Origin: an uncultured Roseibium sp.
GTDB taxonomy: Bacteria; Pseudomonadota; Alphaproteobacteria; Rhizobiales; Stappiaceae
Assembly: GCF_947499295.1 (NCBI RefSeq)
Contig: NZ_CANMNP010000009.1
Location: 1-64,000, forward strand
Length of the DNA stretch: 64,000 bases
Direction: 5' to 3'
The translations under genes were made by a program, and so were the position numbers. The notes beneath the pieces are model-generated. The model searched no databases, was not told the DNA's origin, and worked only from the letters and a program-made list of their open reading frames with translations. Shown here in pieces: positions 535-20,945 of the stretch; position 1 is the first letter of the stretch; each line of letters starts with the position of its first letter.

Positions 535-553
535 GCCGCTCGGAGTTTCAAAA

Positions 554-3040
554 GTGAACTATCACGCCAACGCACAATCGGCAGACAGCCCATCCCCGCA
601 AAAAACTGCAACTCAATCCTTGAACGAAGGCTGGACGTTACGCTGTGCACGAACCGTTGCCGCTGCCCCGGTTACGCCGGACATGAGCTGGGAAGCAACC
701 GTTCCGGGCTGCGTTCATACCGACCTTATGGCGGCTCGTACCATTCCCGATCCATATCTGGACTGCAATGAACTGGCAGTCCAATGGGTCGGCGAATGCG
801 ACTGGACCTACGAAACCGAGTTTAATGCGGATCTTGAAGCCGGCACCCGGCACACACTCGTATTTCACGGACTGGATACTGTTGCGACGGTCTCCCTCAA
901 CGGCAACGTCATCCTTGAAAGCGAAAACATGCATCGAACCTATCGGGTCGATGTCACCGACAAGCTGAAAGCTGAAGGCAACTCACTGAAGGTGGGTTTC
1001 CTGTCGCCCTATCAGCACGAAAAGAAACTGCGTGAAGAACTGGAACCGCGCCCCAATTGTTATCCTGGGCCGGGCAATCTGATGCGCAAAATGGCCTGCA
1101 ATTTCGGCTGGGACTGGGGTCCCACACTCGTCACGGCCGGGATCTGGCGGAATGTGGACCTGGTCAGTTGGTCGACGGCCAAAATCGACAGTCTTCGAAC
1201 AGATGTGTCGATGACCGGAGCCGATGGCCGGGTCTGCATTCATGCCGGTATCGACGGGGTGTCCGAAAGCCTCGAACTGGAGGCCCGCATCGGTGACCAG
1301 TCCGCATCGACCTTCCTGTCGGACAGTGATGGCTATCTTGAACTCAACTACCCTGCTCCACACCTCTGGTGGCCGCATGGAATGGGTGGTCAACCTCTCT
1401 ACGATCTCGAAATTTCGTTGAAAAAAGACGGCGAATTGCTGGAGCGGCAAACCAGACGCATTGGGTTCCGGACTATCAGGCTGGACCTGTCCGGCGACGA
1501 CGACCAATCGGCGTTTACATTTATCGTCAACGGCAAGCCTGTCTTTGTCTTTGGTGCGAACTGGATACCCGATGACTGTTTCCCCGCGCGCATCACACGC
1601 GAAAGACTGGCCGAACGTATTGCGCAGGCAAAAGACGCCAACATGAACATGTTGCGCATCTGGGGTGGCGGCATCTACGAAAGTGACGATTTTTACGACC
1701 TGTGTGACGAAGCAGGCATCATGGTCTGGCAGGATTTTCTGTTTGCCTGTGCCGCTTATCCGGAAGAAGGCACGCTTCCGGCAGAAATTGAAGCTGAGGC
1801 CAAAGACAACATTTCACGCTTGATGTCGCATGCCTCGCTGGCGATCTGGAACGGCAACAACGAAAACATATGGGGCTTTCAGGCCTGGGGCTGGCAGAAA
1901 CCTCTGGCCGGAAGAACCTGGGGCGAAGGCTACTATCTGGATCTGCTTCCGCGCCTTGTCGGGGAATTGCATCCAAGCGGCACCTACTATCCGGGCAGTC
2001 CCTATTCCGGTTCAATGGAACGCTTCGCGAACGCGGACGAACATGGGTGCCGTCACATCTGGGATGTCTGGAACGAGGTCGGCTATGAAGTTTACGCCAA
2101 TTATGCGCCGCGCTTCGTTTCCGAGTTCGGCTGGCAGGCCCCTCCGACCATGGCAACGCTCACGCAATCGATCTCCGATGACCCACTGACACCGACATCA
2201 CCCGGGGTCATGCATCACCAGAAGGCGAGCGAGGGAAACGAAAAGCTTCTGCGCGGCTTGAAGGGCCATTTGCCGGAACCGGGCAATTTCGAAGACTGGC
2301 ACTTCACGACACAGCTTAATCAGGCACGCGCGATACATTTCGGCATCTCCCATTTCCGCGCACTTCAGCCGCACTGCATGGGGTCGATTGCCTGGCAGTT
2401 GAACGACTGCTGGCCGGTCACTTCCTGGGCTGCCATCGATGGGTATGGCCGAAAGAAGCCGCTGTGGTACGCACTCAAGAAAGCCTATGAACCGCATTTC
2501 CTCACGGTCCAGCCATCAGAAGGCGGTCTTGCACTCCACATCGTCAACGACGCAAATCTGGAATGGCGCACCCCAGTTTCAATCAAGCGCGTCAGCCTCG
2601 ATGGAAGGGAACTTGCCGAGCACACAGTCTGGCGCGTTTGTGTGGAAAGAAACAAACCAATCAGCGTGCAGCTGCCGGAGAGTATCATAACGCCAAACGA
2701 CAAATCAAACGAACTGATTGTCGTCACCGCGGATGGCTGCAAGACACATCATTATTTCCAGGAAGACATCAACCTCAAGCTGCCGGAACCGCGTCTCAGG
2801 CTCGACATCGAGGCTGGCGCATCCATCACCAGGGTCATCGTGACAGCGGAAACGTTCCTGAAGGATCTTTGCCTCTTTGCCGATCGCATTGGTCCGGACG
2901 TTACTGTCGATCGGATGCTCGACACGCTTTTGCCGGGTGAAACGCTGACCCTTGAATTGGAGAATGCGACAGACCTTTCGCTTGAGGATCTCACACCTCC
3001 AGGTGTAATCCGAACCGCCAACACATTGCTGGCGTCCTAA
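554..3040 (+). CDS. Beta-mannosidase, glycoside hydrolase family 2
   Basis: This 828-residue protein is the usual length for bacterial GH2 beta-mannosidases, which release terminal beta-linked mannose. An N-terminal sugar-binding domain (GWTLRCAR, TVPGCVHTDL) leads to an Ig-like domain and a TIM barrel. Glu437 in WNGNNENIWG fits the acid/base and Glu524 in FVSEFGW the nucleophile. I chose the GTG at 554 because CGGAG lies 8 bases upstream and because the ATG at 404 would overlap the ABC gene by 131 bases. There is no signal peptide, so it acts in the cytoplasm on imported oligosaccharides. The 3' end overlaps the convergent regulator gene by 4 bases. Confidence 0.93.
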   Translation: MNYHANAQSADSPSPQKTATQSLNEGWTLRCARTVAAAPVTPDMSWEATVPGCVHTDLMAARTIPDPYLDCNELAVQWVGECDWTYETEFNADLEAGTRHTLVFHGLDTVATVSLNGNVILESENMHRTYRVDVTDKLKAEGNSLKVGFLSPYQHEKKLREELEPRPNCYPGPGNLMRKMACNFGWDWGPTLVTAGIWRNVDLVSWSTAKIDSLRTDVSMTGADGRVCIHAGIDGVSESLELEARIGDQSASTFLSDSDGYLELNYPAPHLWWPHGMGGQPLYDLEISLKKDGELLERQTRRIGFRTIRLDLSGDDDQSAFTFIVNGKPVFVFGANWIPDDCFPARITRERLAERIAQAKDANMNMLRIWGGGIYESDDFYDLCDEAGIMVWQDFLFACAAYPEEGTLPAEIEAEAKDNISRLMSHASLAIWNGNNENIWGFQAWGWQKPLAGRTWGEGYYLDLLPRLVGELHPSGTYYPGSPYSGSMERFANADEHGCRHIWDVWNEVGYEVYANYAPRFVSEFGWQAPPTMATLTQSISDDPLTPTSPGVMHHQKASEGNEKLLRGLKGHLPEPGNFEDWHFTTQLNQARAIHFGISHFRALQPHCMGSIAWQLNDCWPVTSWAAIDGYGRKKPLWYALKKAYEPHFLTVQPSEGGLALHIVNDANLEWRTPVSIKRVSLDGRELAEHTVWRVCVERNKPISVQLPESIITPNDKSNELIVVTADGCKTHHYFQEDINLKLPEPRLRLDIEAGASITRVIVTAETFLKDLCLFADRIGPDVTVDRMLDTLLPGETLTLELENATDLSLEDLTPPGVIRTANTLLAS

Positions 3041-4047
3041 AGCAACTTCGTTTTCACGAGTTGCTGCAAGACGTTCGGAGCCTCACCCTCAATCTGGCGG
3101 ATCAACATATCCGCCAGGTTCCAGCCGGCGTCGAGCCTTGAAAAATACGAGGTGATTGGCCGCTTGGCGAGATAGTCACCGAGATTGGTGCCACTGCGTA
3201 CGGAAAAGTTGAAATCCTGAATTCGGTCCGCCGCAGCGTCGCGAACGCCTCTGCGTGCGCCCATCAGCACAATATCGTTGACGCAGACAAAACTGTCCGT
3301 ATCGGTTGTCCTGACCAGTTCGGCAGCTGCCTCCCGGGCAACATTCGCCTGTGGGTCAAGATTGCGCACAAGTGCCTCCCGATAGGAAAGTCCCTCTTCG
3401 GCAAGAGCTTTCTTGTAGCCAGCCATGCGCTGCAGAACGTATGTGAATTCGGCCGGACCGTCGAGCAGCGCAATGTTCTTGTGACCGAGTCGGACCAGTT
3501 CCTTCGTCCCCTGCCAGGCAGCAAACTCATTGTCGACGTCGAAATAGGCATGCTGCGAGAAGAGCTCGGTTCGCCCGAAGGTGACGAAAGGCAACTCCAT
3601 TTCCAAAAGATATTTGGCGCGTATGTCCTGCGGCGTCGTATGATCCATGATGACCCCGTCAGTGGCGCGGCCTCTGACGAGTTTTTCCAGTTCCCGGATA
3701 TCCTCACCGCCATTCGGCGCAATGATAGTTTGCACGGAATAGTCCGAGTTTGCGCATCGCTGATGAATGCCCTGCAATATTCCGAGGAGCGTTGGATCGC
3801 CGATTTCCGTATCGGTTGGAAAGTTGAGCAGCGCGGTCAGCACGAAGGTTCGGCCGGTACGAAGCTTCACACCTTCCATGTTGCGGACATAACCGAGCTC
3901 TTCCGCGACGCGGTTAACCTTCTCGGTCATTTCAACGCTGGTTTTAGGCGACCCATTCACGGCACGCGCAACGGTCGTCACGGACACACCCAGCCGTTCG
4001 GCAATCATCTTTAAGGTGACATTCTTGCTGGAAGATGGGCCGGGCAT
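3037..4047 (-). CDS. LacI-family transcriptional regulator
   Basis: The 336-residue protein starts with a LacI-type helix-turn-helix and hinge helix (residues about 8-60: VTLKMIAERLGVSVTTVARA, then SPKTSVEMTEKVNRVAEELGY). A periplasmic-binding-like sensor domain follows, with FGRTELF, YFDVDNEFAAWQGTKELVRLGH and VNDIVLMGARRGVRDA. It converges tail to tail on the beta-mannosidase gene, so it probably represses the mannoside operon and releases on a sugar ligand. The bases just upstream of its start (4055-4075) contain GAAACCGATTC, which vaguely resembles LacI-type operators, but the symmetry is poor and I do not call it a site. Confidence 0.9.
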   Translation of the reverse strand: MPGPSSSKNVTLKMIAERLGVSVTTVARAVNGSPKTSVEMTEKVNRVAEELGYVRNMEGVKLRTGRTFVLTALLNFPTDTEIGDPTLLGILQGIHQRCANSDYSVQTIIAPNGGEDIRELEKLVRGRATDGVIMDHTTPQDIRAKYLLEMELPFVTFGRTELFSQHAYFDVDNEFAAWQGTKELVRLGHKNIALLDGPAEFTYVLQRMAGYKKALAEEGLSYREALVRNLDPQANVAREAAAELVRTTDTDSFVCVNDIVLMGARRGVRDAAADRIQDFNFSVRSGTNLGDYLAKRPITSYFSRLDAGWNLADMLIRQIEGEAPNVLQQLVKTKLL

Positions 4048-4162
4048 GGACTGGTAGAAACCGATTCAGATGAAACAAATTTGAACGACCAGAATAGCCC
4101 GGCACATCCCCCGACTGCAAAGCAAACGTTGAACAGAATGATTTGTGGCTACAACGCCCCGC

Positions 4163-4663
4163 CTAGCCCGCCAGTAGCCTCTCAAAGGCGTCTTTCAGCT
4201 GATAGGAACCTTGCTGGCCCTGAACGATGTCCTGCAGTTCACCGGCCTCGTTAAAGAGCAGAAGAGTGACATGCTGCGCTCCGTATCGATTGGCAAATTC
4301 CCGGCCCTTCTGGGTTCTGATATTGGCGACCACATAGTCAATTTGCCGCCCCTCAAGCATGTCGAGCGCTTTGCGTGTCTCGCGCTGAAGCGCAAGACAC
4401 ATGGAACACTGCGGATCATGTATCTGCACGATGGTCGAGACCCCGTTGCCGACACGGTCAAGATCATGCTCATGCATGGTTGTCATCACGTTCTGGGCGA
4501 AAACGTAGCCCGTACCACCCAGGACCGCCGCGCCTATGGCAACGTTTCGGACCAGCCGAAGCATACCGCGTCTGTCCACGCCGGTTTCTGAAGCTGGTTG
4601 ATGGGAGACCATAGCTGACGTGCGTTTGGCCTTGTGATTGGTGTTTTTCCGTTGTTTCTTCAT
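4163..4663 (-). CDS. Thioredoxin-like protein with a CSMC motif and Tat-like N-terminus
   Basis: This 166-residue protein has a basic N-terminus, then RRGMLRLV followed by a hydrophobic stretch (AIGAAVLGGTGYVFA), which suggests export, possibly by the Tat route. The body has a thioredoxin-like pattern: VQIHDPQCSMCLALQRETRK carries the CxxC near the start of a helix, then DYVVANIRTQKGREFANRYG and HVTLLLFNEAGE. It is the last gene of a minus-strand cluster with two L,D-transpeptidases, 29 bases after the previous gene. Because those enzymes use a catalytic cysteine, a redox-maintenance role is a reasonable guess, but nothing in the sequence proves a partner. Confidence 0.7.
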   Translation of the reverse strand: MKKQRKNTNHKAKRTSAMVSHQPASETGVDRRGMLRLVRNVAIGAAVLGGTGYVFAQNVMTTMHEHDLDRVGNGVSTIVQIHDPQCSMCLALQRETRKALDMLEGRQIDYVVANIRTQKGREFANRYGAQHVTLLLFNEAGELQDIVQGQQGSYQLKDAFERLLAG

Positions 4664-4692
4664 CGGTCACCTGTTTGAAAATGTCTTCTGTC

Positions 4693-5367
4693 TCAGGTCA
4701 CGAGGATCCCGGCACCTGAGCGCACGCGATCGTAAAGATCGATCACATCCTGATTGACCAGCCTCACGCAGCCCGATGACACAGCACGGCCAATCGAGGC
4801 CGTTTCATTCGTGCCGTGCAATCGATAAAGCGTGTCGACATTGCCCTGGAAAATGTAGAGCGCTCTGGCCCCCAGCGGATTTTCCAGACTTGGCGCCATT
4901 CCACCGTTCCTGGCACTATATTTTGCAAGTTCTGGCTGGCGTGCGATCATCTCGTCCGGCGGTGTCCAGGTCGGCCACGGCCGTTTCCACGCGATCCTTG
5001 CCCGGCCCGACCATTCAAAGCCTTGCCGGCCAAGTCCGACGCCGTACCGCATGGCAGTCCCTTCCGGCTCGACAAGATAAAGGTAGAAGCGGCTGGTATC
5101 GACCACCACCGTGCCGGGCTTTTCCTGCGTCTGGTAAGGCACTCTTTGTCGCCTGTACTGAGGCTTCAAGACCTTCGGATCCACAGCAGGAAGCGGAAAT
5201 TCCTCATTGGGACGCGATCCGTAATTCAAGACGAATTCAGGATCGACGCGCGGTTGAACGGGCGCTGGTAAGGGAGCCTTGGCCGTCGGTGCGCAAGCTG
5301 CCAACGACAGTCCGGCGAGACCCAGCCCGCCCGACAACACCTGACGCCGTGTCACATATTTATTCAT
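4693..5367 (-). CDS. L,D-transpeptidase (YkuD domain), predicted lipoprotein
   Basis: The 224-residue protein starts TRRQVLSGGLGLAGLSLAAC, a twin-arginine motif, hydrophobic run and a lipobox-like LAAC, so it is probably exported and lipid-anchored. The YkuD catalytic region is intact: HGTNETASIGRAVSSGCVRL holds the conserved His and the nucleophilic Cys of the SxGCxR motif. This family forms 3-3 cross-links in peptidoglycan or attaches proteins to it. The gene lies 21 bases downstream of a paralogous L,D-transpeptidase and 29 bases upstream of the thioredoxin-like gene, all on the minus strand. Confidence 0.92.
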   Translation of the reverse strand: MNKYVTRRQVLSGGLGLAGLSLAACAPTAKAPLPAPVQPRVDPEFVLNYGSRPNEEFPLPAVDPKVLKPQYRRQRVPYQTQEKPGTVVVDTSRFYLYLVEPEGTAMRYGVGLGRQGFEWSGRARIAWKRPWPTWTPPDEMIARQPELAKYSARNGGMAPSLENPLGARALYIFQGNVDTLYRLHGTNETASIGRAVSSGCVRLVNQDVIDLYDRVRSGAGILVT

Positions 5368-5388
5368 GTATTTTGGTCCGAACGCCTC

Positions 5389-5967
5389 TTAAAGAACCAC
5401 AACACGAGTTCCCACAGGGACCCGGTTGTAGAGGTCGACCACATGATCATTGATCATGCGAATACAGCCGTTCGAGACGGACCTGCCGATTGAGGATGGC
5501 TGGGTGGTTCCGTGGATCCGGTAGTAGGTATCCCGGCCGTTCTTGTAAAGATACAGCGCTCGGGCACCGAGCGGATTGTTGACACCGCCGGGTACACCTT
5601 TGGCGTAACGCGCATATTTTTGCGGTTCACGGCGGATCATGTTCCGGGTCGGCGTCCAGCTCGGCCATTCAGCTTTGCGCTGGATGATTGCCGATCCCTG
5701 GAAGGCCAGGCCGGCCTTGCCAACGCCGACGCCGTAACGGCGTGCCCGGCCCCAGCGTTCCATCAGGTATAGAAAATGGTTTCGCGGATCCACGACAATG
5801 GTGCCAGGTGTGTAGTTCAGGGAATAAAAAACCCTTTGGGGCGCATATTCCGGATTGAGTTTGAATGTTTTTTTGAATTTGGCCGTATGATGGGCACTGG
5901 CCATATCTGCGTTTGCAACGACCAGTGCTGCAGCACCGCCGAGCAGCAGCTCTCTTCGGTTGAACAT
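5389..5967 (-). CDS. L,D-transpeptidase (YkuD domain), Tat-like signal
   Basis: This 192-residue enzyme begins FNRRELLLGGAAALVVANAD, a Tat-like twin-arginine signal ending near MASA-HH. The catalytic domain has the region HGTTQPSSIGRSVSNGCIRM with the conserved His and Cys, and PGTIVVDPRNHFLYLM at the start of the fold. It is a paralogue of the next gene (4693-5367): they share RYGVGxG and NPLGARALY. It lacks the lipobox of that neighbour, so it is probably free in the periplasm. Two tandem copies that differ in anchoring suggest different substrates or locations. Confidence 0.92.
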   Translation of the reverse strand: MFNRRELLLGGAAALVVANADMASAHHTAKFKKTFKLNPEYAPQRVFYSLNYTPGTIVVDPRNHFLYLMERWGRARRYGVGVGKAGLAFQGSAIIQRKAEWPSWTPTRNMIRREPQKYARYAKGVPGGVNNPLGARALYLYKNGRDTYYRIHGTTQPSSIGRSVSNGCIRMINDHVVDLYNRVPVGTRVVVL

Positions 5968-6031
5968 CTGAAGTCTCCTGAAAATCTGAAAATGCCGACC
6001 GGAAAACCGGTCAGGTGATCAAATCAAACTT

Positions 6032-6358
6032 TCAGGTATTGGGCGGACGGGGCTCGAGACGGCCAGAAACGGAACTGCGTCTGAGCGGCCGCGTCGTATC
6101 GAGCCGCTCACGCGTTTCAAAGGTCTCCAAAAGGCCTGAGCCCATGACCGCCTTGCAGTCCGAAGACTTGCAATAGGTCGGTTTGGTGTCCGCGACAGTC
6201 TTTTCTTCGCAGCATTCGTCTTCAAGCTGAGCAGCTTCTCCGACGACATAAACCGAGATTGCTTCGGGCGCTGCCTGATAAAGATCTACATTGCCGCGCG
6301 CAAGGCTTTGTTGCGCGCCTGCCAAAAGAAGGCCGACAATGAGCAGAATCCGAAACAT
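6032..6358 (-). CDS. Small secreted Cys-containing protein, function unknown
   Basis: The predicted product has 108 residues with a clear signal peptide (MFRILLIVGLLLAGAQQSLA). The mature part has four cysteines, in DECCEEK and YCKSSDCK, and a C-terminal Arg/Pro-rich tail. I do not recognise the family. The gene is first in the minus-strand cluster and its stop lies 64 bases before the L,D-transpeptidase start. There is no Shine-Dalgarno sequence before the ATG; on the contrary the bases just upstream read as its complement, so translation may be weak or the start may differ. Confidence 0.55.
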   Translation of the reverse strand: MFRILLIVGLLLAGAQQSLARGNVDLYQAAPEAISVYVVGEAAQLEDECCEEKTVADTKPTYCKSSDCKAVMGSGLLETFETRERLDTTRPLRRSSVSGRLEPRPPNT

Positions 6359-6879
6359 GACAGGAGGTTACCGGCGAATCCTGACAAAACCTATACAACC
6401 CACTTCACACTCCCGTGAGCAAGCACGCAGCTTGTCAGGCTGCCTCAGCCGCGGCTGAAAGGTTTGTTCTGTCAGAAAAGCTGGGGTCCGACACGCATGC
6501 ACCCCTCAGCATGAATGCCGGACCCCGAGCGCCCGGTCCGCCCCCGGAAAAACAATCTGTCCAGCTTAACAAGCTTGGCGCCAATTCCAAGCAGGAAACG
6601 CACCTCACCGCTTTGGCGTTGATCCCGGTCAAGGACAGGATTTTGTTTGTCGTGCAAGTAAACCAATAGGCCAAAGTGTCTGCAAGACGGATTGGGTTTG
6701 CTGGCGTGGAGGAAACAAAAATCAACTCAAGTCCCGTTCAGAGGATCTGGTTGCCGGGGATAACCCCGGAAAAAATCCATTTCAGACCGGGTGACGGCAA
6801 AACAGGAATTCGAAACATGACCATTGCCAACGATGAAAAGTGGATCGATAAAGAAACATCGGGTTTGTCGGAGGCAACC
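6359..6879. other. Gene-poor 520-base stretch with nested inverted repeats
   Basis: I see no convincing gene here. An open frame at 6415-6669 (+) lacks a ribosome site and family features. The notable content is structural. TCAGCCGCGGCTGA at 6445-6458 is a perfect 14-base palindrome. At 6483-6500 and 6509-6526 there are two 18-base arms (GGGGTCCGACACGCATGC on the left) that pair at 15 of 18 positions around the 8-base loop ACCCCTCA. The promoter of the following DUF3775 gene and that of the minus-strand wall-enzyme cluster should also lie in this stretch. Confidence 0.5.
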
Positions 6880-7290
6880 ATGGATATCGACCTCACCATT
6901 TCCGCGGATACGGTCCGCCTGTTCGCCCAGAAAGCGCGCGCAGTCGCTTCCTCAATACAGGATACGTTTGAAGACGGGCATGAAGGCGATGTAGAATTCG
7001 ACGCTGACACGCTGGAAGAAAGCCATAGCCACGATGGCCTTGCCGAGGAAGAAAGCGAAGACCTTTCGGACGAGGAACTTCGTGAACTGATAGAAGATCT
7101 CAACGTCGACGAGGCAGCGAACCTTGTGGCCATCACATGGATTGGCCGCGGTGACTTTGAAGCCGAGGATTTTGACCAGGCCGTCACTGAAGCCAAAGAA
7201 AGGGCAGTTGGATCCACAGCGAAGTATCTCCTAGGCATGCCACTTCTTGCTGACTATCTGGAAGCAGGCTTGGACGCACTTGATCTTTGA
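6880..7290 (+). CDS. DUF3775 domain-containing protein
   Basis: This 136-residue acidic protein has the DUF3775 layout as I know it: an N-terminal ISADTVRLFAQKARAV segment, an acidic middle (EESHSHDGLAEEESEDLSDE), then LRELIEDLNVDEAANLVAIT, WIGRGDFEAEDFDQAVTEA, and a C-terminal YLLGMPLLADYLEAGLDAL. The ATG at 6880 is preferred because GGAGG sits 5 bases upstream; a frame open from 6676 has no such site. No function is known for the family and no catalytic motif is visible. It stands alone on this strand. Confidence 0.8.
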   Translation: MDIDLTISADTVRLFAQKARAVASSIQDTFEDGHEGDVEFDADTLEESHSHDGLAEEESEDLSDEELRELIEDLNVDEAANLVAITWIGRGDFEAEDFDQAVTEAKERAVGSTAKYLLGMPLLADYLEAGLDALDL

Positions 7291-7476
7291 ATTTTTCATC
7301 GACCCCGAAAGACTTCCCTAAGGTCAATAGCGGAGCTGTGATTTCGCCCTCTACTCCACAATTAAACGGTTTCCTTGGGAAAACCGGTTTGAGGAGTGTT
7401 TCTTGTCTTTCCCCGAGCGTTCGATTGTCGCAGTCTCATTGATGGTGATGGTGATGGGAGCAGGGAGCTGAGTGAA

Positions 7477-7602
7477 ATGCTACAAGACCCGACGAACCGT
7501 GATGCTTTGACAGTTCATCGACCGTCTCCGTGGCCATATGTCGGAGGCATGATGGCAGCGACCGCTTTGATCACGACACTGGTCATCGCTTTCAGCAGCT
7601 AA
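7477..7602 (+). CDS. Small single-span membrane protein, tentative
   Basis: This frame gives a 41-residue product with a polar N-terminus (MLQDPTNRDALTVHRPSPW) followed by one hydrophobic span (YVGGMMAATALITTLVIAF). GGGAG lies 9 bases before the ATG. It sits between the DUF3775 gene and the DUF1624 gene on the same strand. Its size and lack of a recognised family make it uncertain, but the membrane span and ribosome site together make coding plausible. Confidence 0.4.
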   Translation: MLQDPTNRDALTVHRPSPWPYVGGMMAATALITTLVIAFSS

Positions 7603-7686
7603 ACGACCCCACGAAATCCGAACTGAATTGTCAGGCGTTCCCGGTTTTGCGAACCGGTTGATCAGGTTTCTGTCCGGAAAGTACAT

Positions 7687-8646
7687 ATGACCACGAAGCG
7701 ATTGGCCGTGCTTGATCTCGCCCGTGGCCTCGCAGTGGTCGCCATGGCGATCTATCATTTTTCCTGGGATCTATCCTGGTTCGCGTTCGTCGACTGGCCT
7801 GTGTCTCAGGGAACCGGCTGGCGAGTGTTCGCAGCTTCCATTGCTGGCAGCTTTCTGTTCCTTGCGGGCGTCAGTCTCGATCTCGCGCATAATGACGGCA
7901 TTCGCTGGCGGCCATTCTGGCGGCGGTTTGCGATGATCGCGGCAGCCGCCGCAGCTGTGTCACTTGTTACCTATTTCACATTTGGCGATAGTTTTGTGCG
8001 TTTCGGGATCTTGCATTCGATCGCACTGGCCAGCCTCATCGCCTTGCCTTTCGCCAGAGCGCCTCTCGCCCTCAGCGCTGCCGCATCCATAGTGTTTCTG
8101 ACACTTCCATTTTGGGCAAAATCGCAGATTTTGGATGGTCCGCTCTGGCTGTGGACCGGACTCGGAACCGTTGGTTATCCGAGCGTGGATTACGTTCCCA
8201 TGGCACCGTGGGCTGGGGTCACACTCGCAGGCCTCGCCGTTTCACGAACCTTTCGCAACTTGAAACTCTGGACCAGATTGTCGGCGTTTCGCCTGCGCAG
8301 TGCTTCTGCAAGTTTCATTCGTGCCATGGGACGCCATTCATTGGCAATATACCTGCTGCACCAACCGGTGCTTTACGGGCTCGTATGGACAGCAGCTGCA
8401 GTCGGGCCCGATTTGGATCGCTCAGGCAAAGCGTTCGTCCGCAATTGCTCGCTGGCCTGCGAGGACAGTCTTGGAACGCCCGGCATCTGCCGGTCCGCAT
8501 GCACCTGTACTCTTGAGCAACTGAAAGCGGACAACACCTGGGAGGCTCTCCAGAAGGAGCCGCAGAACCAGTCTTTGCGCAGCCGGATGAACACCAGCTA
8601 CGCCCAATGCCTTGCAGACGCAGAGCTTGCGCCTCAGGCCGACTGA
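7687..8646 (+). CDS. DUF1624/HGSNAT-type membrane protein
   Basis: The 319-residue protein begins RLAVLDLARGLAVVAMAIYH, the signature of the DUF1624 group related to heparan-alpha-glucosaminide N-acetyltransferase, acyltransferase-like multi-span membrane proteins. About seven hydrophobic segments follow, and MGRHSLAIYLLHQPVLYGL is the typical last span. After it comes a hydrophilic tail of about 80 residues with seven cysteines (NCSLAC, GICRSACTC, AQC), perhaps disulfide-bonded or metal-binding. The gene ends 13 bases inside the end of the convergent GMC gene. The substrate is unknown. Confidence 0.82.
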   Translation: MTTKRLAVLDLARGLAVVAMAIYHFSWDLSWFAFVDWPVSQGTGWRVFAASIAGSFLFLAGVSLDLAHNDGIRWRPFWRRFAMIAAAAAAVSLVTYFTFGDSFVRFGILHSIALASLIALPFARAPLALSAAASIVFLTLPFWAKSQILDGPLWLWTGLGTVGYPSVDYVPMAPWAGVTLAGLAVSRTFRNLKLWTRLSAFRLRSASASFIRAMGRHSLAIYLLHQPVLYGLVWTAAAVGPDLDRSGKAFVRNCSLACEDSLGTPGICRSACTCTLEQLKADNTWEALQKEPQNQSLRSRMNTSYAQCLADAELAPQAD

Positions 8647-10031
8647 AGCGCGTGATCGCACGACTTAAAGGCAAGCGCGAGAGCGGTCAATGTTGGGTTC
8701 ACCGCAACAGGTGCCGGAATGACGCCAGCGCCCGCCAGATAGAGATTGTCGAAACCGTGGACCTTCGCGTTGCAATCGGAGACCCCTGACGTTCCTTCGC
8801 AGTCCATTCGACACGTCCCGACCAGATGCGATGTGCCGGCAGGCACCCAGACGGGTTCTCCTCCCCTCCGCCACGGACCAAGCTTTTCACCAAGATGGCG
8901 AATATCGTCTTCCAAACGCTGCATCCCTTCGCGATCTCTCTCCGAAAAGGAATACGTCACCGAGATTTTGCCGTCATCATTGAAGGAAACGGAATTCGCT
9001 TGATTGAACTCGACAGGCAAAAAGGCTTGGAATTCCAACAAGCGGTTCGGATTGTCGACCGCTTCCACCACGGGAAGCGGACACGTATCCCGCAAAACCT
9101 GAATGTGCCAGGGCGCGTTCTGCGTCGGGGCAATCCAATATCTGGGCGGGACATCATCGCGGGCGGGTGTGGATGCCAGCTCGGGAGACAAGACAAGTTG
9201 CGCGAAATAGAGCGCGTGGAAAGAAAATCCGCGCCCAAGGGCTTCGGGTCTGATGCCTGACTTGTGGAGCAAGCGCGGAGTTCCAAGTGCACCACCTGCA
9301 ATCAGGAAGATACCTGCGCTCAAGACCTGATCGTTGGTGTCGCCGCTCTGGACTGCCACACCGGTTACCTTGCCGTTTTTGTACAGTATCTTGTGCGCAA
9401 GAGCCGGAGCATAAATCCTGATCCGTTCGCGAACGTCGCAATCGACTGCGGTCAGCAGGTCTGCAGTTCCAGCGAAATGCAACCCGTCCCCTTTTGCTCT
9501 GCCGCCCGAGAACGGCAGGCTTTGCAGTGTGCGCCCCTCCCCTCGAAGCCCGGGCAAAAGCCGTTCCTTGATGTTTGCGCCAACCCTGGATCCAGTAGCA
9601 GCATTGGTCGTAACCTGAAGGGCTGTTTCCGCTTCACCGTAATAGTCGTTCCATTGAGCATCACCAAGGGCATCAAAGCGCTCAAACACCGATGCTCGTA
9701 GACAATTATTGGTCCACAAGACACCTTGGCCGCCGATTGCCGCCGTGTCGGCAATTCCAGGCAGGACAGCATCTTGACCCGACGCCATGACCGGCTGCAA
9801 AAAGGGTTCCACGGCCCCAAAAAAGGCATCAGGATCGTGTTGGAACCCGGGTTGATTGCGAAGATGGGAACCGGCGGGATCCGTAATCGCTTCCCCCTGC
9901 TCAAGCACGGCGACGGTCAGCCCCTTTCTTGCGAAACGGATAGCACAAGAGACGCCTATCGGGCCGGACCCGACGATGACGACGTCGGTGTGCGTATCTG
10001 TCATCTGTTTGGGCAGATCTAGGATTTGCAT
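8634..10031 (-). CDS. GMC-family FAD-dependent oxidoreductase
   Basis: This 465-residue flavoprotein has an N-terminal FAD-binding fold (VVIVGSGPIGVSCAIRFARK, then VLEQG). The GMC C-terminal domain has SHLVGTCRMDCEGTSGVSD, with a probable active-site His, and PVAVNPTLTALALA, where Asn fits the second catalytic position. HLRNQPGFQHDPDAF is reminiscent of pyranose-2-oxidase-like members, so a sugar or polyol substrate is possible. The ATG at 10031 is preceded by GGAGG 10 bases upstream. It overlaps the convergent DUF1624 gene by 13 bases and follows the kinase-like gene by 80 bases. Confidence 0.87.
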   Translation of the reverse strand: MQILDLPKQMTDTHTDVVIVGSGPIGVSCAIRFARKGLTVAVLEQGEAITDPAGSHLRNQPGFQHDPDAFFGAVEPFLQPVMASGQDAVLPGIADTAAIGGQGVLWTNNCLRASVFERFDALGDAQWNDYYGEAETALQVTTNAATGSRVGANIKERLLPGLRGEGRTLQSLPFSGGRAKGDGLHFAGTADLLTAVDCDVRERIRIYAPALAHKILYKNGKVTGVAVQSGDTNDQVLSAGIFLIAGGALGTPRLLHKSGIRPEALGRGFSFHALYFAQLVLSPELASTPARDDVPPRYWIAPTQNAPWHIQVLRDTCPLPVVEAVDNPNRLLEFQAFLPVEFNQANSVSFNDDGKISVTYSFSERDREGMQRLEDDIRHLGEKLGPWRRGGEPVWVPAGTSHLVGTCRMDCEGTSGVSDCNAKVHGFDNLYLAGAGVIPAPVAVNPTLTALALAFKSCDHALQSA

Positions 10032-10111
10032 CAACCATTTTCCTCCGGCCCCCGGCAAGTCTGTGGCACCGGAATGGTAACATCATCTCTGTGCTGGGCA
10101 ATCCACCGGTG

Positions 10112-11029
10112 TCAGGCAAACGGTCGGCTTAACTGACCTATGTGCCGCACGGCACGCGAACATCGTTCGCTTGCGTAAGTATAAAGGTCTCGCGCGTTTT
10201 CGAGCGCCCAAAGTGCCGAAATGGCGTCGCAGCGGACTTTCATGAAGAGAAGGTCTTGCTGTGTCCAAGATGCTGGCTGAGATGTGGCGTCCCGATATGA
10301 CGTCAGAAAGATCTGCTCCTGGGACCGCGTGAAACTCATTTCCAATGCGGCATAGGCAACATCCCAAAGCGGATGCGCCATTGCAGAAAACTCCCAATCA
10401 ATAAAAAGGAGGGTCTCGGAGTTCGTGAGACAGTTTCCCGGTGAGACATCTCCATGACTGGGTACCAAAGTGTCAGTGTTCACTGGACCCATTGTGTTTT
10501 CCACAAACCTGAGCACTTCAGAAAGATCGGGAACTTTCGCCACGATATCACCGATGCTTCCAAGGCCCTTGATTTGCGCAGCAAGAACTCGATCGGGGTC
10601 CAGATGGCCCTGAAAGGCGAGCTTCGAGCCGTGCAGTGCGGCAAGTTGCGTTCCCAGCTCTTTTGCAAACGCTGACGGAGCGAGACTTTCTTGTTCCTGA
10701 GCGCGAGTGACAAGCACGCCGTTTTCAGGATTGCAATAAACGGCAGGCAAGGCGAGGCCGATCTCTGCCGCAAGCCCCATGTTGTGAGCTTCTGCGATCC
10801 GGTCCAAGGTTCCGGCCAATGACGGCCCAGGCACTCTTACAAAGAACCGCCCCTTAGAAGTCTCCGTCCGAAAAACCCTGTTGGTCAGCCCTGCTGCAGG
10901 CACAGATGAGATGATCTCGCCCAGCACTGCACGCAGTTCCGCATCCCGGGCCGAAAGCAGAAGGAGGTCGGATGCAATGGTGTCTGGTGTTTGAACGGAG
11001 GACTGTGGCACAAGCTCTAAAAAGATCAT
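10112..11029 (-). CDS. Aminoglycoside/choline kinase-like phosphotransferase (APH fold)
   Basis: The 305-residue protein has the APH/choline-kinase core: FVRVPGPS at the nucleotide-binding lobe, the catalytic loop PSHGDVSPGNCLTNS with the Asp-x4-Asn arrangement, and FIDWEFSAMAHPLWDVAYAA corresponding to the DFG-like Asp. Such proteins phosphorylate small hydroxyl compounds; the native substrate cannot be read from sequence and antibiotic resistance should not be assumed. It is divergent from the SelT/W/H gene (25-base gap) and may share a transcript with the GMC oxidoreductase downstream. Confidence 0.85.
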   Translation of the reverse strand: MIFLELVPQSSVQTPDTIASDLLLLSARDAELRAVLGEIISSVPAAGLTNRVFRTETSKGRFFVRVPGPSLAGTLDRIAEAHNMGLAAEIGLALPAVYCNPENGVLVTRAQEQESLAPSAFAKELGTQLAALHGSKLAFQGHLDPDRVLAAQIKGLGSIGDIVAKVPDLSEVLRFVENTMGPVNTDTLVPSHGDVSPGNCLTNSETLLFIDWEFSAMAHPLWDVAYAALEMSFTRSQEQIFLTSYRDATSQPASWTQQDLLFMKVRCDAISALWALENARDLYTYASERCSRAVRHIGQLSRPFA

Positions 11030-15555: not shown

Positions 15556-15626
15556 GCTGTTTTTGAACTCTTGTTCTTTCGTCCAGCATTGCAGCGTCGG
15601 CCCCATGAGGTTTTGTGTCGATTTTA

Positions 15627-15640
15627 ATTGATCGATCAAT
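15627..15640. promoter_or_regulatory. Palindromic operator candidate upstream of betC
   Basis: ATTGATCGATCAAT is a perfect 14-base palindrome 61 bases before the choline-sulfatase start. Its TTGAT...ATCAA arms resemble the boxes bound by the TetR-family repressor BetI at bet genes in other bacteria. No betI gene lies in the window, so the regulator would act from elsewhere. Confidence 0.45.
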
Positions 15641-15701
15641 CAAAAAAAGCGCATCATCAATTTGTTCGAAACACTCCCTGGCAGCGGCGAAAGAAGAGAA
15701 A

Positions 15702-17222
15702 ATGGGCATGAGCGGCAAGAACATCCTGATCCTGATGGTTGACCAACTGAATGGGACGCTTTTCCCGGACGGGCCTGCCGATTTCCTTCATGCTCCAAAT
15801 CTTAAAAAGCTGGCAGAAAGATCCGTCCGGTTCGAAAACGCTTATACTGCTTCGCCGCTATGCGCGCCGGGACGCGCAAGTTTCATGTCCGGTCAGTTGC
15901 CGCGCCGAACCAGGGTTTATGACAATGCAGCCGAATTCGCATCCGACATTCCAACTTACGCCCATCACCTGCGCAGGGCCGGATACACCACCTGCCTTTC
16001 GGGTAAAATGCACTTTGTCGGTCCGGATCAGATGCATGGTTTTGAAGAACGTCTGACCACCGACATCTATCCGGCGGATTTCGGCTGGACGCCGGACTAT
16101 CGCAAACCGGGAGAACGCATCGACTGGTGGTACCACAATATGGGCTCGGTCACCGGTGCAGGGATCGCGGAAATCTCGAACCAGATGGAATACGACGATG
16201 ACGTCGCGTTTCAGGCCGTTCGCAAGATCTACGACTATGGCCGAGGAAAATATGACCGGCCCTTCTGCCTGACGGCCAGCTTCACCCATCCACACGATCC
16301 TTATGTCGCCCGCAAAAAATACTGGGACCTTTACGAAGACTGTGAGCATCTCCATCCACCGGTTCCTGCGATGAACTACGAGGATCACGACCCGCATTCC
16401 AAACGCATTTTCGACGCCAATGACTGGCGCAGCTTCACCATCACCGAAGACGATATCCGTAGATCGCGGCGCGCTTATTTCGCAAATATTTCCTATCTGG
16501 ACGACAAGATCGGCGAAATCCTGCATGCACTGGAAGCGATGGATCTTGCACAAGACACTACCATCCTTTTCGTCTCCGACCACGGCGACATGCTTGGCGA
16601 GCGGGGCCTCTGGTTCAAGATGTCCTTCTTTGAAGGGTCATCACGCGTTCCGCTGATGATCGCCGACAAGGACCTTGCTGCCGCCTATATCAAGACACCC
16701 GTCAGCACACTTGACGTGCTGCCAACAGTCTGTGACCTCGGCGGCATCGACATGGCCGAAATCATGCCCTGGACCGACGGCGAGAGCCTGGTACCACTGG
16801 CAAGCGGCACAGAGCGCACATCACCGGTGTTGATGGAATACGCGGCGGAAGCCTCCTATGCGCCGCTTGTCGGCATTCGTGAAGGCGACTGGAAATACAT
16901 CCATTGCGAACTCGATCCGCCGCTGCTTTTCAACCTGTCGAACGATCCGCACGAGCTCGAAAATCTCGCCGCGGATCCGGACCATGCGGATATCAGTGCC
17001 CGCTTCGCTCAATCCATCAGAACGGGTTGGAACATGGCAACCTTCGATGCTGAAATTCGCCAATCCCAGGCCAGACGCTGGATCGTCTACGAAGCTCTTC
17101 GGAACGGCGCCTATTTCCCTTGGGACTACCAGCCCCTTCAAAAAGCCTCAGAGCGCTACATGCGCAACCACATGGATCTCAACGACGTTGAAGACACCCA
17201 GAGATATCCGCGCGGCGAGTGA
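15702..17222 (+). CDS. betC: Choline-sulfatase
   Basis: This 506-residue type I sulfatase follows rhizobial BetC closely along its whole length. The metal-binding start is NILILMVDQLNG. CAPGRASFMSGQ holds the Cys converted to formylglycine (C-x-P-x-R). Other marks are LSGKMHFVGPDQMHGFEERL, FTHPHDPYVARKKYW, FVSDHGDMLGERGLWFKMSF, and the family's C-terminal end ERYMRNHMDLNDVEDTQRYP. It hydrolyses choline-O-sulfate to choline and sulfate in the cytoplasm, feeding glycine-betaine synthesis or sulfur supply. I chose the ATG at 15702, after an AGAAGAG site. Unlike in Sinorhizobium, no betI, betB or betA is adjacent. Confidence 0.93.
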   Translation: MGMSGKNILILMVDQLNGTLFPDGPADFLHAPNLKKLAERSVRFENAYTASPLCAPGRASFMSGQLPRRTRVYDNAAEFASDIPTYAHHLRRAGYTTCLSGKMHFVGPDQMHGFEERLTTDIYPADFGWTPDYRKPGERIDWWYHNMGSVTGAGIAEISNQMEYDDDVAFQAVRKIYDYGRGKYDRPFCLTASFTHPHDPYVARKKYWDLYEDCEHLHPPVPAMNYEDHDPHSKRIFDANDWRSFTITEDDIRRSRRAYFANISYLDDKIGEILHALEAMDLAQDTTILFVSDHGDMLGERGLWFKMSFFEGSSRVPLMIADKDLAAAYIKTPVSTLDVLPTVCDLGGIDMAEIMPWTDGESLVPLASGTERTSPVLMEYAAEASYAPLVGIREGDWKYIHCELDPPLLFNLSNDPHELENLAADPDHADISARFAQSIRTGWNMATFDAEIRQSQARRWIVYEALRNGAYFPWDYQPLQKASERYMRNHMDLNDVEDTQRYPRGE

Positions 17223-17250: not shown

Positions 17251-18141
17251 CTACCGCGCGGCAAAAATCTCATAGCCTTTGGGCAATGGCTTGCCGTCGC
17301 GTTCGGCTTCCGCTTTCAGGCAGTCGAGCAGGTCCTGCCGGCTGTCCTCAAAACTGGGCATGACACTGGTTGCAGCAAAAGCCAGCCGTTCCAGACCGAT
17401 GCCGCCGAGTTCCAGTGCGCTTTCCGGCTGCTCGGGCGGCGTGATCCCGATATCTGCGATTTCAAGATGCCCTGCGAGAGGATAGACAAGTTCATCGCTT
17501 GTCCTCGCAGCCAGAGGATAGTGAATGCTCACAGAGTGATATCCGGGTCCCGCCGGATGATCCTTAGGCGCGAAAAAACCGGAACCGTCTCCGGCTGCTT
17601 TCGCCTCGTTCATCGGTCGCAAAAGGGTACGACCAGCCCGAACCATGTCATTTGTCTCCGCATATGGAGAGAAGGCCTCAGTGGACACGAACACCAGGCG
17701 CGCCGGATCAAGCTTGGCCTTTTCAACCAGGAAATTCAGCATGTTGGCAAAGAGGCTGCGATGCTCAATCGGCTCGGATTGCCGGAGACCACAAATCGTG
17801 AAAAGGGCCAGAACTCCGGCTTCTTGGTGACGCGCAGCATCGTCAATTCTGGCAGCTGGCTGGACGACCAGGCTGTTGCCGGAAACAGGAATTTCCAAAG
17901 TTTCATCATATCGCAGACCGCCATTGAAGCGATCGCCTGTCAGCAGTCCGAGTGGTTCTGTCGTTTTGTAGCCCAACTGGCCGAAATGTGACCGAAACTC
18001 CGTTTCAAGCGAGACAGCCGCTTCCGTGGCACCGAACGCCAATCCGGTTCCTGCAGTCAGGCCGGCAGCTCCGGCAAGCGACAGCTCCAGAACGGTTCTA
18101 CGGGAAATCTGCTTGGTCTTGCTTTTCGTCATTTCGCTCAA
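17251..18141 (-). CDS. Tat-exported protein resembling an alanyl-tRNA synthetase catalytic core
   Basis: The 296-residue protein begins with a Tat signal (ISRRTVLELSLAGAAGLTAG). The rest follows the order of class II AlaRS core segments, at low identity: FRSHFGQLGYKTTEPLGLL (like the start of AlaRS), LALFTICGLRQSE, then PARLVFVSTE, PKDHPAGPGYHSVSIHY (where AlaRS has its GPCGPCxEI region), HLEIADIGI (where AlaRS has LEIWNLVF), and finally GGIGLERLAF, matching motif 3 (GxGLER). There is no anticodon, editing or C-Ala domain. Export makes tRNA charging unlikely; a repurposed adenylating or binding protein is possible. It faces the betC gene tail to tail. Confidence 0.55.
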   Translation of the reverse strand: MSEMTKSKTKQISRRTVLELSLAGAAGLTAGTGLAFGATEAAVSLETEFRSHFGQLGYKTTEPLGLLTGDRFNGGLRYDETLEIPVSGNSLVVQPAARIDDAARHQEAGVLALFTICGLRQSEPIEHRSLFANMLNFLVEKAKLDPARLVFVSTEAFSPYAETNDMVRAGRTLLRPMNEAKAAGDGSGFFAPKDHPAGPGYHSVSIHYPLAARTSDELVYPLAGHLEIADIGITPPEQPESALELGGIGLERLAFAATSVMPSFEDSRQDLLDCLKAEAERDGKPLPKGYEIFAAR

Positions 18142-18310: not shown

Positions 18311-19912
18311 TCAGCGCTGGTCCCAATTGGCGCGCGTCCCGCGCACATCGATGTGTACAAAGCTTCGGTAAATTCCAACCCCGCCTTCAAACAGCCCATT
18401 TGAGCGAAGTGATTTCATGCGGCTGGCCCAGTCGCCGGTGACGCCAGCACCGCCGCCGACAACCTTAAAGTCTGCCGCGGTAAAGGCCATGTGCTGGCTG
18501 CGTGTGGCCCCGCCGATGCTGGAATTGTATTTCGGGCTTCGGTAGACGCTGGTCAGAACCACCGGAACGCCAACCTGTTCGCGAAACGCGTCTAAAGCTC
18601 TGGCAAGAGGAAGAACATTTTCCCAGAGTTCACGGGGTGGGTCGGTGTTGAGGCCGTTGGCCCCGTGGGAGCCGCCTTTGATCAGAAATTCATGCCATTT
18701 GAAATGACGGACCTCGGGCAAACGTTCTTCAAAAAATGCCTGAAAGGGGTGTGCCGGTGGCACGACACCATCGATGTTGGGCTTGTTGTCTGCAACGACA
18801 GCATCCGCATTGGCATCGGAATCCGGTTGTCCTTGTTCGTTTTCTCCGACCACATCCAGCTTCAGGTCCACATGCCCGTGGTCATGGAGAAATTTCAGGA
18901 AGGTCGCACAACCGCATTGTTTGGAAACCGCCGATTTGTTGAAGACCCCGTCTCCGACATACTTGCCTTTCGTATAGATGGACGAAAAGCTCCAGAGATA
19001 GGGCGACGGCAGCCTCTTCTTGCGATAGCCCCAGCCATTGTACCGCTCCCATCGCCACAGTGCTCTTGGCAATGACCAGTCGGAGAGACCCGCAAGCTTC
19101 TGGTGCGTAAGTGCGTCCCTTGCGCTCTCCTCCCAGGAGTTTGGCGGCAGCCAGGCGGCGGGACGTCCGGACGGCACACGAAAGGTACGGTTCGACAAGG
19201 GGTCGCCATTGTGAAGATGTGTTGAAAAATTATAGGACGATTCCAGCAGGTGGATCGCTGCGACGAACCACCAGGGGATCCCAAGCGGGTTCCCGACAGC
19301 CTCATAGCGCGATTTCTCGGCCACCGCCTTCAGAGCGTATTTTTTGACCAGCGCTTCACGGTCGTTCTTGAAACCGGAAGAAACAAAGAAACGGATATAT
19401 TCGTCCGCAATTTCCTCATACTTGCGGCTTGTCGATGTCTTGGGTCCGGTCAGAATTCCGGAGTTGGCGATATCATCGGGTATCTTCACGGGATCAAGGA
19501 CCGGTGCGATCATGTCCTCGTCGTTGTTCAGATCCTCGACCTCCTGGTCGGAATTGTGTGTCTTGCGCATGCCTTCGTCATCATGAAAAAGGCGAAGCGC
19601 TTCACCCAGACGCCCGATAATCGATGACAGTGCCGGAGCCTGAATAGGATTGCGAACCGGAGAAATTGCAACAAACGTCCGGTCCAGATCGGTCATGGCT
19701 TCCAGCATTTTCTCGGTGACATTCAAAAAGCGCCGTGTGCCGGACCGAAAGCCTTCCACGCTTTCCAGAAGACGACGCTCAAGCAGCTCATTGCCGAAGG
19801 CGCGGATCGCATTCACTTCTTCAATCGTTTGCGCCTTGTCGAGCAGGTCGAACAGATTGGCCAAAGACAGATCGTCGTTGAGTTTAGCGAGTACTTCTTC
19901 AGACGAATCCAC
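18311..19912 (-). CDS. Two-domain wall hydrolase: lysozyme-like plus M15 (YcbK-like) peptidase
   Basis: The 533-residue protein has three parts. Residues 1 to about 200 are helical and unfamiliar. Next is a lysozyme-like domain recognisable by WFVAAIHLLESSYNFSTHLH, with a likely catalytic Glu, and by RWERYNGWGYR and YLWSFSSIYTKGKY. After a linker rich in Asp/Asn comes an M15 domain of the YcbK kind: SVYRSPKYNSSIGGATRSQH, then AADFKV and FVHIDVRG carry the Zn ligands. The start is the GTG at 19912, five bases after AAGGAGG. There is no signal peptide. It follows a lipoprotein gene by 25 bases. Together the domains could cut both glycan and peptide of peptidoglycan. Confidence 0.75.
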   Translation of the reverse strand: MDSSEEVLAKLNDDLSLANLFDLLDKAQTIEEVNAIRAFGNELLERRLLESVEGFRSGTRRFLNVTEKMLEAMTDLDRTFVAISPVRNPIQAPALSSIIGRLGEALRLFHDDEGMRKTHNSDQEVEDLNNDEDMIAPVLDPVKIPDDIANSGILTGPKTSTSRKYEEIADEYIRFFVSSGFKNDREALVKKYALKAVAEKSRYEAVGNPLGIPWWFVAAIHLLESSYNFSTHLHNGDPLSNRTFRVPSGRPAAWLPPNSWEESARDALTHQKLAGLSDWSLPRALWRWERYNGWGYRKKRLPSPYLWSFSSIYTKGKYVGDGVFNKSAVSKQCGCATFLKFLHDHGHVDLKLDVVGENEQGQPDSDANADAVVADNKPNIDGVVPPAHPFQAFFEERLPEVRHFKWHEFLIKGGSHGANGLNTDPPRELWENVLPLARALDAFREQVGVPVVLTSVYRSPKYNSSIGGATRSQHMAFTAADFKVVGGGAGVTGDWASRMKSLRSNGLFEGGVGIYRSFVHIDVRGTRANWDQR

Positions 19913-19937
19913 AACACCCTCCTTGGTGCCAGACGCC

Positions 19938-20945
19938 TTATTGGCTCCCGGCAGCTGCGAGACGGACTTTTCGGATAGACACCCAGAATGCGTTTGACCG
20001 GCGCCGTATTTCCTCGGCCTCAACCGCGACCTCGGTGAGGTTGGCGACGGTTACCTGGGGTGTTTCAGCGGCCGCGACCAGGACGTCCAGTGCCTCCGAA
20101 GTCTGGTCAAGCAGGTTCACGTAAGCTGTCAGGCTTTCATGAAAGCGTTTGATACTGAGCGAGATGGCACTGAAGCGTTTGTTAGCCGCGGCGACAGCTT
20201 TTGTATCGCCGGACAGTTCCGCGATCCTTCGGTCCGCCCGTATATTGAAAAGATCGATCTCTCGTGCCTTGCGAAAAATGTTGTAGATCGGCGTCGTGTC
20301 GTCCGCGAGCGCCTGGATCAGCTCCTGAATGTCATCTTTGCTTCTGAGGATCGATTGCCGGACGGTCGCATTCGCGCGTGCCTGTCCAAGCCGGTTGGCA
20401 AGATCTTTGGCGTAAGAAGCCGAAGGCGGGATCAAGGCCGACATGCCGCCGCTTGGCACCACGCCGATCGCCGCGACCGAATTTGCCAGCCGCACCAACT
20501 CGTCGATCCGGTTGCCGAATTCTTCGGAGCGTTTGCCCTCGGCGATATCAACGAGCATGTTGTTGTAGAGTGTGATTGCCTCCAGGGCATTACGGCGGGC
20601 AACGATGGACGGATCCTCGTCGATGCGTGCATTGTCCTGACTACGGGCGGTGTCCGGATCGAAACACAAAGGGTATCCGAGACGGGATGTTCCACATCTG
20701 GCATCGCCTGCTGTCGACGTTTTGGCCGAGACGATAGGCGAAATCTCGTCCAGAAGCAGATCTCCTGCATCTCTCGCCTGCGCGAAGGCGTCCGCGTAGG
20801 TTGTCAGTGTCTCGACAGGTATTCCTGCACATCCTGTCAGCAAAAGAAAAAGTGTTGCCCAAAGCCCTTGCAAGGACTGCTTTATCTGAAGCAGTGGTTT
20901 CACTTCACTGAAAATGACCAAAAACTCCCCCGAATCGGATTGCAC
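19938..20945 (-). CDS. Predicted lipoprotein, function unknown, paired with wall hydrolase
   Basis: The product (up to 335 residues) has a hydrophobic stretch ending in a lipobox (LFLLLTGCAG) and a long, mostly helical mature part without catalytic motifs; Cys pairs occur only in ARCGTSRLGYPLCF. The start is not settled: the GTG at 20945 gives the longest frame, while a GTG at 20903 would give a signal peptide of more normal length. It directly precedes the lysozyme/M15 gene on the same strand, so it may anchor, assist or inhibit that enzyme. I do not recognise the family. Confidence 0.65.
   Translation of the reverse strand: MQSDSGEFLVIFSEVKPLLQIKQSLQGLWATLFLLLTGCAGIPVETLTTYADAFAQARDAGDLLLDEISPIVSAKTSTAGDARCGTSRLGYPLCFDPDTARSQDNARIDEDPSIVARRNALEAITLYNNMLVDIAEGKRSEEFGNRIDELVRLANSVAAIGVVPSGGMSALIPPSASYAKDLANRLGQARANATVRQSILRSKDDIQELIQALADDTTPIYNIFRKAREIDLFNIRADRRIAELSGDTKAVAAANKRFSAISLSIKRFHESLTAYVNLLDQTSEALDVLVAAAETPQVTVANLTEVAVEAEEIRRRSNAFWVSIRKVRLAAAGSQ

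Follow-up and report, generated by a model that had tools for sequence, protein, structure and literature searches.

The active site of alanyl-tRNA synthetase (AlaRS) has been described for the Methylomonas enzyme, in which the adenine is sandwiched between Phe89 and Arg232, the alpha-phosphate is held by Arg68 and the amino group is bound by Asp225, equivalent to Asp235 of Escherichia coli (PMC12143591). For E. coli AlaRS, the residues listed in the consulted part of another study are M43, R69, W170, N212, D235 and G237, with human AARS1 R77Q given as the counterpart of E. coli R69 (PMC12467997); this human variant has been reported to show raised lactyltransferase activity (PMC11093599). Synthetase cores that act outside translation are already known. 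In the consulted text of a review of synthetase paralogues, carrier-protein ligases are placed under AlaRS, and HisZ is said to have no adenylation activity (PMC9437257). In the accessible sections of a survey of the Tat pathway in alphaproteobacteria, AlaRS occurs as a tree marker only (PMC3305326). In addition, a search of titles and beginnings of abstracts in the open-licence literature, which is weak as evidence of absence, returned no exported, Tat-borne protein derived from AlaRS of the kind considered below; an exported synthetase core would be new in the literature searched.

Here, we examined one open reading frame (ORF) of the window (the whole stretch of 64,000 nucleotides that was analysed, from an uncultured Roseibium sp.). 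Computation gave the fold, the architecture, the residue conservation and the presence of a leader in its product, hereafter the window protein. The features used below are as follows.

15615 to 17222, plus strand: choline-sulfatase (BetC)-type gene, a convergent neighbour (Pfam Sulfatase, 3.5e-40; Choline_sulf_C, 7.6e-21).
17251 to 18141, minus strand: the whole ORF, 296 aa from TTG, encoding a Tat-type leader and a stand-alone AlaRS-like class II core.
18028 to 18141, minus strand: predicted twin-arginine leader, residues 1-38, with RR in 15 of 15 members and low model confidence.
18097 to 18102, minus strand: the twin arginines Arg14-Arg15, invariant in the alignment (coordinates verified).
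17917 to 17925, minus strand: N73-G74-G75, opposite N39-A40-G41 of AlaRS (TNAGM), with N73 and G75 in 15 of 15.
17779 to 17877, minus strand: motif 2 hairpin, residues 89-121, with Q94, R98, D101 and F114 and model strands at 89-96 and 114-121.
17578 to 17592, minus strand: G184-D-G-S-G188, nearly invariant.
17368 to 17469, minus strand: motif 3 region, residues 225-258, with LEIAD (E227, D230) and GGIGLERLA (L245, R252).

The in-frame ATG at residue 4 (position 18132, bases verified) agreed better than the TTG with the starts of the relatives and is the likelier true start. The promoter and terminator scan at the gene gave nothing above chance. Searches of the window protein against Pfam and NCBIfam returned no model above cut-off; the only matches were to Tat-signal models, below threshold, and to CbtA, at chance level. 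This is in line with a statement of the first-pass annotation, made from the sequence alone, that no characterized family of this type was known, and none was described in the open-licence literature searched.

Fourteen full-length relatives, scattered in Alphaproteobacteria, were identified. Together with the window protein they form a 15-member alignment (A3), in which identity to the window protein ranges from 80% down to 28% and the columns of R14, R15, N73, G75, Q94, D101, L111, F114, T154, R175, G186, G188, Y208, G249, R252 and A256 are invariant. Six additional loci (L002, L012, L058, L059, L060 and L069) were repeats of rows already present. A named relative from the contig scan, Labrenzia sp. 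THAF82 (L001; Alphaproteobacteria, Hyphomicrobiales, Stappiaceae), differed from L003 at 3 positions and was left out of A3, as was a 92-residue partial sequence in genome G1052 (L061). The latter is a C-terminal match to the family (G1052:C75:4751-5029) with 54% identity to member L016 and an open frame of 96 aa, and could be either a truncated copy or the effect of a contig edge.

The occurrence of the gene was then examined at several taxonomic levels, with the window gene counted in each tally. It was present in 10 of 61 related genomes by whole-genome search, in 6 of 397 genomes of an order-wide draw and in 2 of 385 genomes of a class-wide draw (queried with the 9-row alignment A1 and with the most divergent member). 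Of the 30 genomes searched from the family to which G737 belongs, three matched, including one with a 92-residue partial sequence. Among 299 genomes drawn from the phylum two matched, namely the window's own genome and one genome with a true AlaRS (E 8.5e-4 per genome, which is near chance over 299), and the same AlaRS was the only match among 78 genomes from the class of the latter organism. It should be noted that in the class and phylum draws with alignments scoring was limited to the first 6-8 candidates of each genome, so that absence there is soft. Spread of the gene by plasmids or viruses was considered and rejected: no match was found among 72,556 plasmid records, and none in viral contigs scanned with two peptide patterns only.

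Within the genus of the window the distribution was patchy (9 of 37 genomes carried the gene, and one further genome, G787, did not), as might be expected if the gene were a decaying AlaRS fragment without function. However, the open frame was intact in all 15 aligned members, in which 16 columns were invariant. Furthermore, dN/dS was below 1 in each of the seven pairs tested (range 0.11-0.48), with 0.24 for the comparison with the nearest aligned relative (dS was >1.5 in five of the seven). Decay is largely refuted by this selection test and appears scarcely credible.

With regard to gene neighbourhood, the gene lay between uvrB and betC in all nine carriers of the window's genus, with BetC within ∼4 kb (UvrB was identified by Pfam in the two loci scanned, and BetC by Pfam in the window). 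A functional link to choline sulfatase was considered and rejected, as BetC was found with or without the gene. All six non-carriers that were fetched had kept the two flanking genes, with betC and uvrB lying no more than ∼5 kb apart and the gene absent. BetC at ≥83% identity was present in 20 of the 28 non-carriers of the genus that were searched (one of them, G001, partial). The six carriers outside the genus comprised two with no BetC match at E≤1e-30, two whose copy (65-72% identity) was on a different contig and two with only a 30% identical sulfatase. BetC is read as a positional neighbour and not as a required partner. The possibility that the gene forms an operon with that of the M15 peptidase (18311-20023) was also rejected: the same order was seen in L067, an extra gene lay between the two in L051, and they were not found adjacent in the remaining carrier loci. 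Outside the genus, the neighbours included DsbB and DoxX in L055 (DsbB: family also L056) and DUF72 in L047 (family also L053). No neighbour family was common to all carriers, and none was kept outside the genus among the loci compared.

Several other observations were made at these loci. The gene at 18311-20023 (minus strand) specifies a product of 570 aa, at the C-terminus of which Pfam recognizes Peptidase_M15_3 (E 2.2e-17). The long region preceding this domain matches no Pfam model, and part of it resembles a muramidase on visual inspection. In L051 and L067 this gene is accompanied by 19938-20945, whose product has a lipoprotein-like start by eye and no Pfam match. A CHASE4-GGDEF protein (Pfam) is next on the uvrB side in three carriers of the genus (L046, 8249-9778; L049, 8197-9771; L051, 8244-9776). 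The most divergent member, in L057 (G139, 1-10678), has as neighbours a DHDPS-family gene (E 3.2e-55), an ABC ATPase with TOBE_2 and two mutually related proteins (326 and 309 aa) for which Pfam gave no match.

The first-pass annotation had proposed a class II synthetase fold nearest to that of AlaRS, and a structure search was run to see whether the fold falls outside class II synthetases. An AlphaFold model of the window protein built on A3 (pLDDT 81.3, pTM 0.80) was compared by Foldseek (E≤10) with 350,542 PDB chains, and the best 50 of 559 matches were examined. Ranks 1-19 were all AlaRS (E 7.7e-11 to 4.5e-7), rank 6 among them being an integrative model labelled SYA, and PheRS followed at 3.2e-5. 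For a model of L016, which is 35% identical to the window protein (pLDDT 81.2, pTM 0.81), the best 50 of 653 matches were examined; ranks 1-20 were AlaRS (best E 1.3e-11, TM ≤0.65 on the query), and HisRS came next at 1.9e-5. The two models were built on the same 15 sequences and are not fully independent. Over gapped whole-chain alignments, the rmsd of the AlaRS matches was 6.7-8.5 Å for the window model (ranks 1-19) and 3.7-7.5 Å for the L016 model (ranks 1-20). In a viral library, both matches at E≤0.001 were named alanine--tRNA ligase, with no others at that threshold. Thus, AlaRS was first in the PDB for both models and also came up in the viral library, as proposed, and on the basis of these predicted structures the assignment of the window protein to the AlaRS branch of the class II synthetase fold is well supported.

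We also measured kinship at the level of sequence. A scan of 26 AlaRS loci found the literal string GMGLER in 19, and 18 of these entered the alignment (L032 was omitted); the genome's own alaS (L018) had no literal GMGLER in the scan and is not part of this alignment. When the 15-row family was aligned with the 18 AlaRS cores by hhalign, residues 41-265 were placed onto AlaRS residues 2-245 (local E 9.8e-4, HH probability 21.8). With the leader trimmed, the local E was 9.1e-4 and the global E 2.1e-6 (probability 78). None of 200 column-shuffled AlaRS alignments reached the observed score of 32.4 (best 25.3), and the reversed AlaRS alignment scored 18.6. The same residue was held in 10 of 19 column pairs conserved in both families, compared with 0-4 after the register was slid by 1-12 columns, although this control is biased toward register 0, where the alignment was optimized. 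The AlaRS-like order of segments noticed initially was borne out by an alignment that runs end to end and that no shuffle equalled, and GGIGLERLAF, which had been assigned to motif 3, fell on DTGMGLERIA of AlaRS, with HLEIADI on FVEIWNL. On the other hand, the AlaRS Pfam model (PF01411) matched none of the 15 members at E≤10, and the NCBIfam archaeal AlaRS model TIGR03683 matched one of 15 (E 0.098). Sequence search of the PDB gave nothing convincing, with phosphoseryl-tRNA synthetase at E ∼1 ranked under better-scoring unrelated chains. The sequence profiles agree with an AlaRS fold but alone are weak.

The C-terminus lies only ∼44 residues beyond motif 3, with no further Pfam domain. This is the point at which AlaRS enters its tRNA-recognition domain, and the window protein is therefore no ordinary tRNA-charging enzyme. 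A full alaS is present on another contig of the window's genome. The earlier suggestion of a place outside translation agrees with both observations, as there is no room for a tRNA-recognition domain after motif 3 and a separate full alaS exists.

The suggested twin-arginine signal, SRRTVL, occupies residues 13-18 of the window protein. The RR pair was retained in all 15 aligned members, the rest of the leader being variable, and a hydrophobic stretch followed it in 15 of 15 leaders (mean hydropathy 0.36-1.46). The Pfam TAT_signal model (PF10518) matched 7 of 15 members at E≤10 (best E 3.7e-5) and NCBIfam TIGR01409 matched 6 of 15 (best 0.012). TatC was encoded in 15 of 15 host genomes. The AlphaFold model had pLDDT <50 at residues 1-14 and 16-35 of the window protein. 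It might be argued that the leader does not function as a Tat signal and that the protein is cytoplasmic or membrane-anchored, given that the window leader scored 14.5 bits against the TAT_signal cut-off of 22.7 and was also below the TIGR01409 cut-off, and that an AxA motif was found in the scanned stretch of 12 of 15 leaders, with the window protein among the three lacking it. However, conservation of RR down to 28% identity, the positive mean hydropathy behind it in every member and the TAT_signal matches speak against a non-working leader, which we consider very improbable. Export of the window protein via Tat is fairly supported by these features of the leader.

Further inspection of the active site was based on AlaRS numbering, as the first row of the AlaRS alignment has Phe89, Arg232, Arg68 and Asp225 at those positions. 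By hhalign, F114 was placed on the adenine-stacking Phe89 and R252 on the adenine-sandwiching Arg232, each in 15 of 15 members; by MAFFT, F114 was one residue off, on Phe88. In GxGLER of motif 3, R252 and G249 were present in all members and E251 in 14 of 15. Nucleotide binding is conceivable because both residues of the adenine sandwich, the arginine of motif 3 and the phenylalanine of motif 2, are kept in 15 of 15. The column opposite Asp225 (L245 in the window protein) contained G in six members, A in four, V in two and L, Y and S in one each, and D or E in none of 15. Opposite Asn202 (D230 in the window protein), E was found in 14 members and D in the window protein only. It appears that nucleotide-type binding may have been kept while recognition of alanine has gone. 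The G184-D-G-S-G188 segment resembles GDTGPCGP of AlaRS by eye, and the aligners do not pair the two.

In motif 2, both hhalign and MAFFT gave an ungapped register with Q94 (15 of 15) on Arg68, R98 on K72 and D101 on D75. An alternative register with a loop four residues shorter puts Q94 on Q64 and R98 (R in 14 members, K in one) on Arg68, and the strand ends of the model (89-96 and 114-121) are compatible with either. The ungapped register is favoured, in which the position of the motif-2 arginine is probably taken by the invariant Gln94; R98 on Arg68 would restore an ATP-type site. Glutamine at this position is no proof of inactivity, because human AARS1 R77Q was reported with raised lactyltransferase activity. 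The first-pass annotation had raised the possibility that products are made by adenylation. With Gln94 on the motif-2 arginine, Asp225 lost in 15 of 15 and Asn202 replaced by E or D in 15 of 15, this is doubtful only, and adenylation has likely been lost.

An ATP-using adenylating enzyme, which would transfer an acyl- or aminoacyl-adenylate to a protein or small molecule and act either before export or with extracellular ATP, is the corresponding alternative. It would explain why the adenine pair F114/R252 occurs in every member and E251 in all but one, as well as the R or K at R98 in all members, a candidate for the motif-2 arginine in the shorter-loop register. A parallel is found in the consulted text of two studies: lactate is activated by AlaRS for use in lysine lactylation, and the R77Q form of the human enzyme was reported to be active (PMC12467997, PMC11093599). 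However, both aligners placed Q94 rather than R98 on Arg68, and Asp225 was lost throughout. To our knowledge, there is also no ATP supply in the periplasm, which counts against such an enzyme. We regard this alternative as unlikely.

Our preferred explanation is an exported core derived from AlaRS that would bind or process a nucleotide-like ligand outside the cytoplasm without adenylation. We give it about an even chance of being correct, and export, the class of ligand and the loss of adenylation are the parts that we infer. A stand-alone catalytic core, either descended from AlaRS or sharing an ancestor with it, would fold, leave the cytoplasm in folded form through Tat and charge no tRNA. 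Its cleft would have been rebuilt, with the adenine sandwich F114/R252 kept, Asp225 gone, an acid at the position of Asn202 and probably Gln94 as the motif-2 residue. Outside the cytoplasm, it could serve as a binding protein or catalyse hydrolysis or transfer without ATP, and the ligand might be purine-, adenylate- or other nucleotide-like, perhaps with a cationic group. A more specific scheme is that the core is loaded inside the cell with an acyl- or aminoacyl-adenylate or other nucleotide-like ligand, is carried by Tat and captures, hydrolyses or transfers this ligand in the envelope with no local ATP; we propose it as a tentative, rather improbable variant.

Alternatively, the window protein might be a non-catalytic regulatory or structural protein in the manner of HisZ, with its fold serving to sense a ligand or to bind a partner within the envelope. 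According to the consulted text of the review, HisZ belongs to the class II paralogues and lacks adenylation activity (PMC9437257), and the loss of substrate-binding residues from a conserved cleft fits a binding role. However, among the loci compared, no neighbour gene was conserved beyond the genus, and the invariant polar residues N73, Q94, D101, T154, R175 and Y208 suggest a working site over a scaffold. A purely non-catalytic role appears to be a minor possibility.

If the preferred explanation of an exported, non-adenylating core is true, a folded synthetase core with a rebuilt amino-acid pocket would be sent through Tat, and an old fold would be at work where an ATP supply is not known. 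The changed pocket residues open the way to simple binding tests, and A3 provides an alignment of a protein family that was reached by no Pfam or NCBIfam model here.

Compared with known systems, the window protein has the same fold and motif order as the catalytic core of AlaRS (the N-terminal part of PF01411; PDB 9jc7, 3hxu and 1riq). The two share identical residues at F53/F14, N73/N39, G75/G41, D101/D75, F114/F89, L144/L119, E227/E199, G249/G229, E251/E231 and R252/R232 (window protein/AlaRS). It differs from AlaRS in that a twin-arginine leader has been added and the tRNA-recognition, editing and C-Ala domains are absent. The family as a whole differs in the loss of Asp225, the change of Asn202 to E or D, the change of Arg68 to Gln (in the preferred register) and the failure of PF01411 to match any of 15 members. 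The mini-AlaRS of Tupanvirus is likewise a shortened AlaRS, but according to the consulted part of its description it charges tRNA and has retained the tRNA-recognition domain (461 aa), whereas the window protein stops after the core (PMC10036535). Amino acid:carrier-protein ligases, HisZ, AS-A and other paralogues resemble the window protein in reusing a synthetase core outside translation (PMC9437257). The main text of the same review does not contain 'signal peptide', 'secret' or 'periplasm', and by this description only, those families are set apart from the window protein with its predicted Tat leader (PMC9437257).
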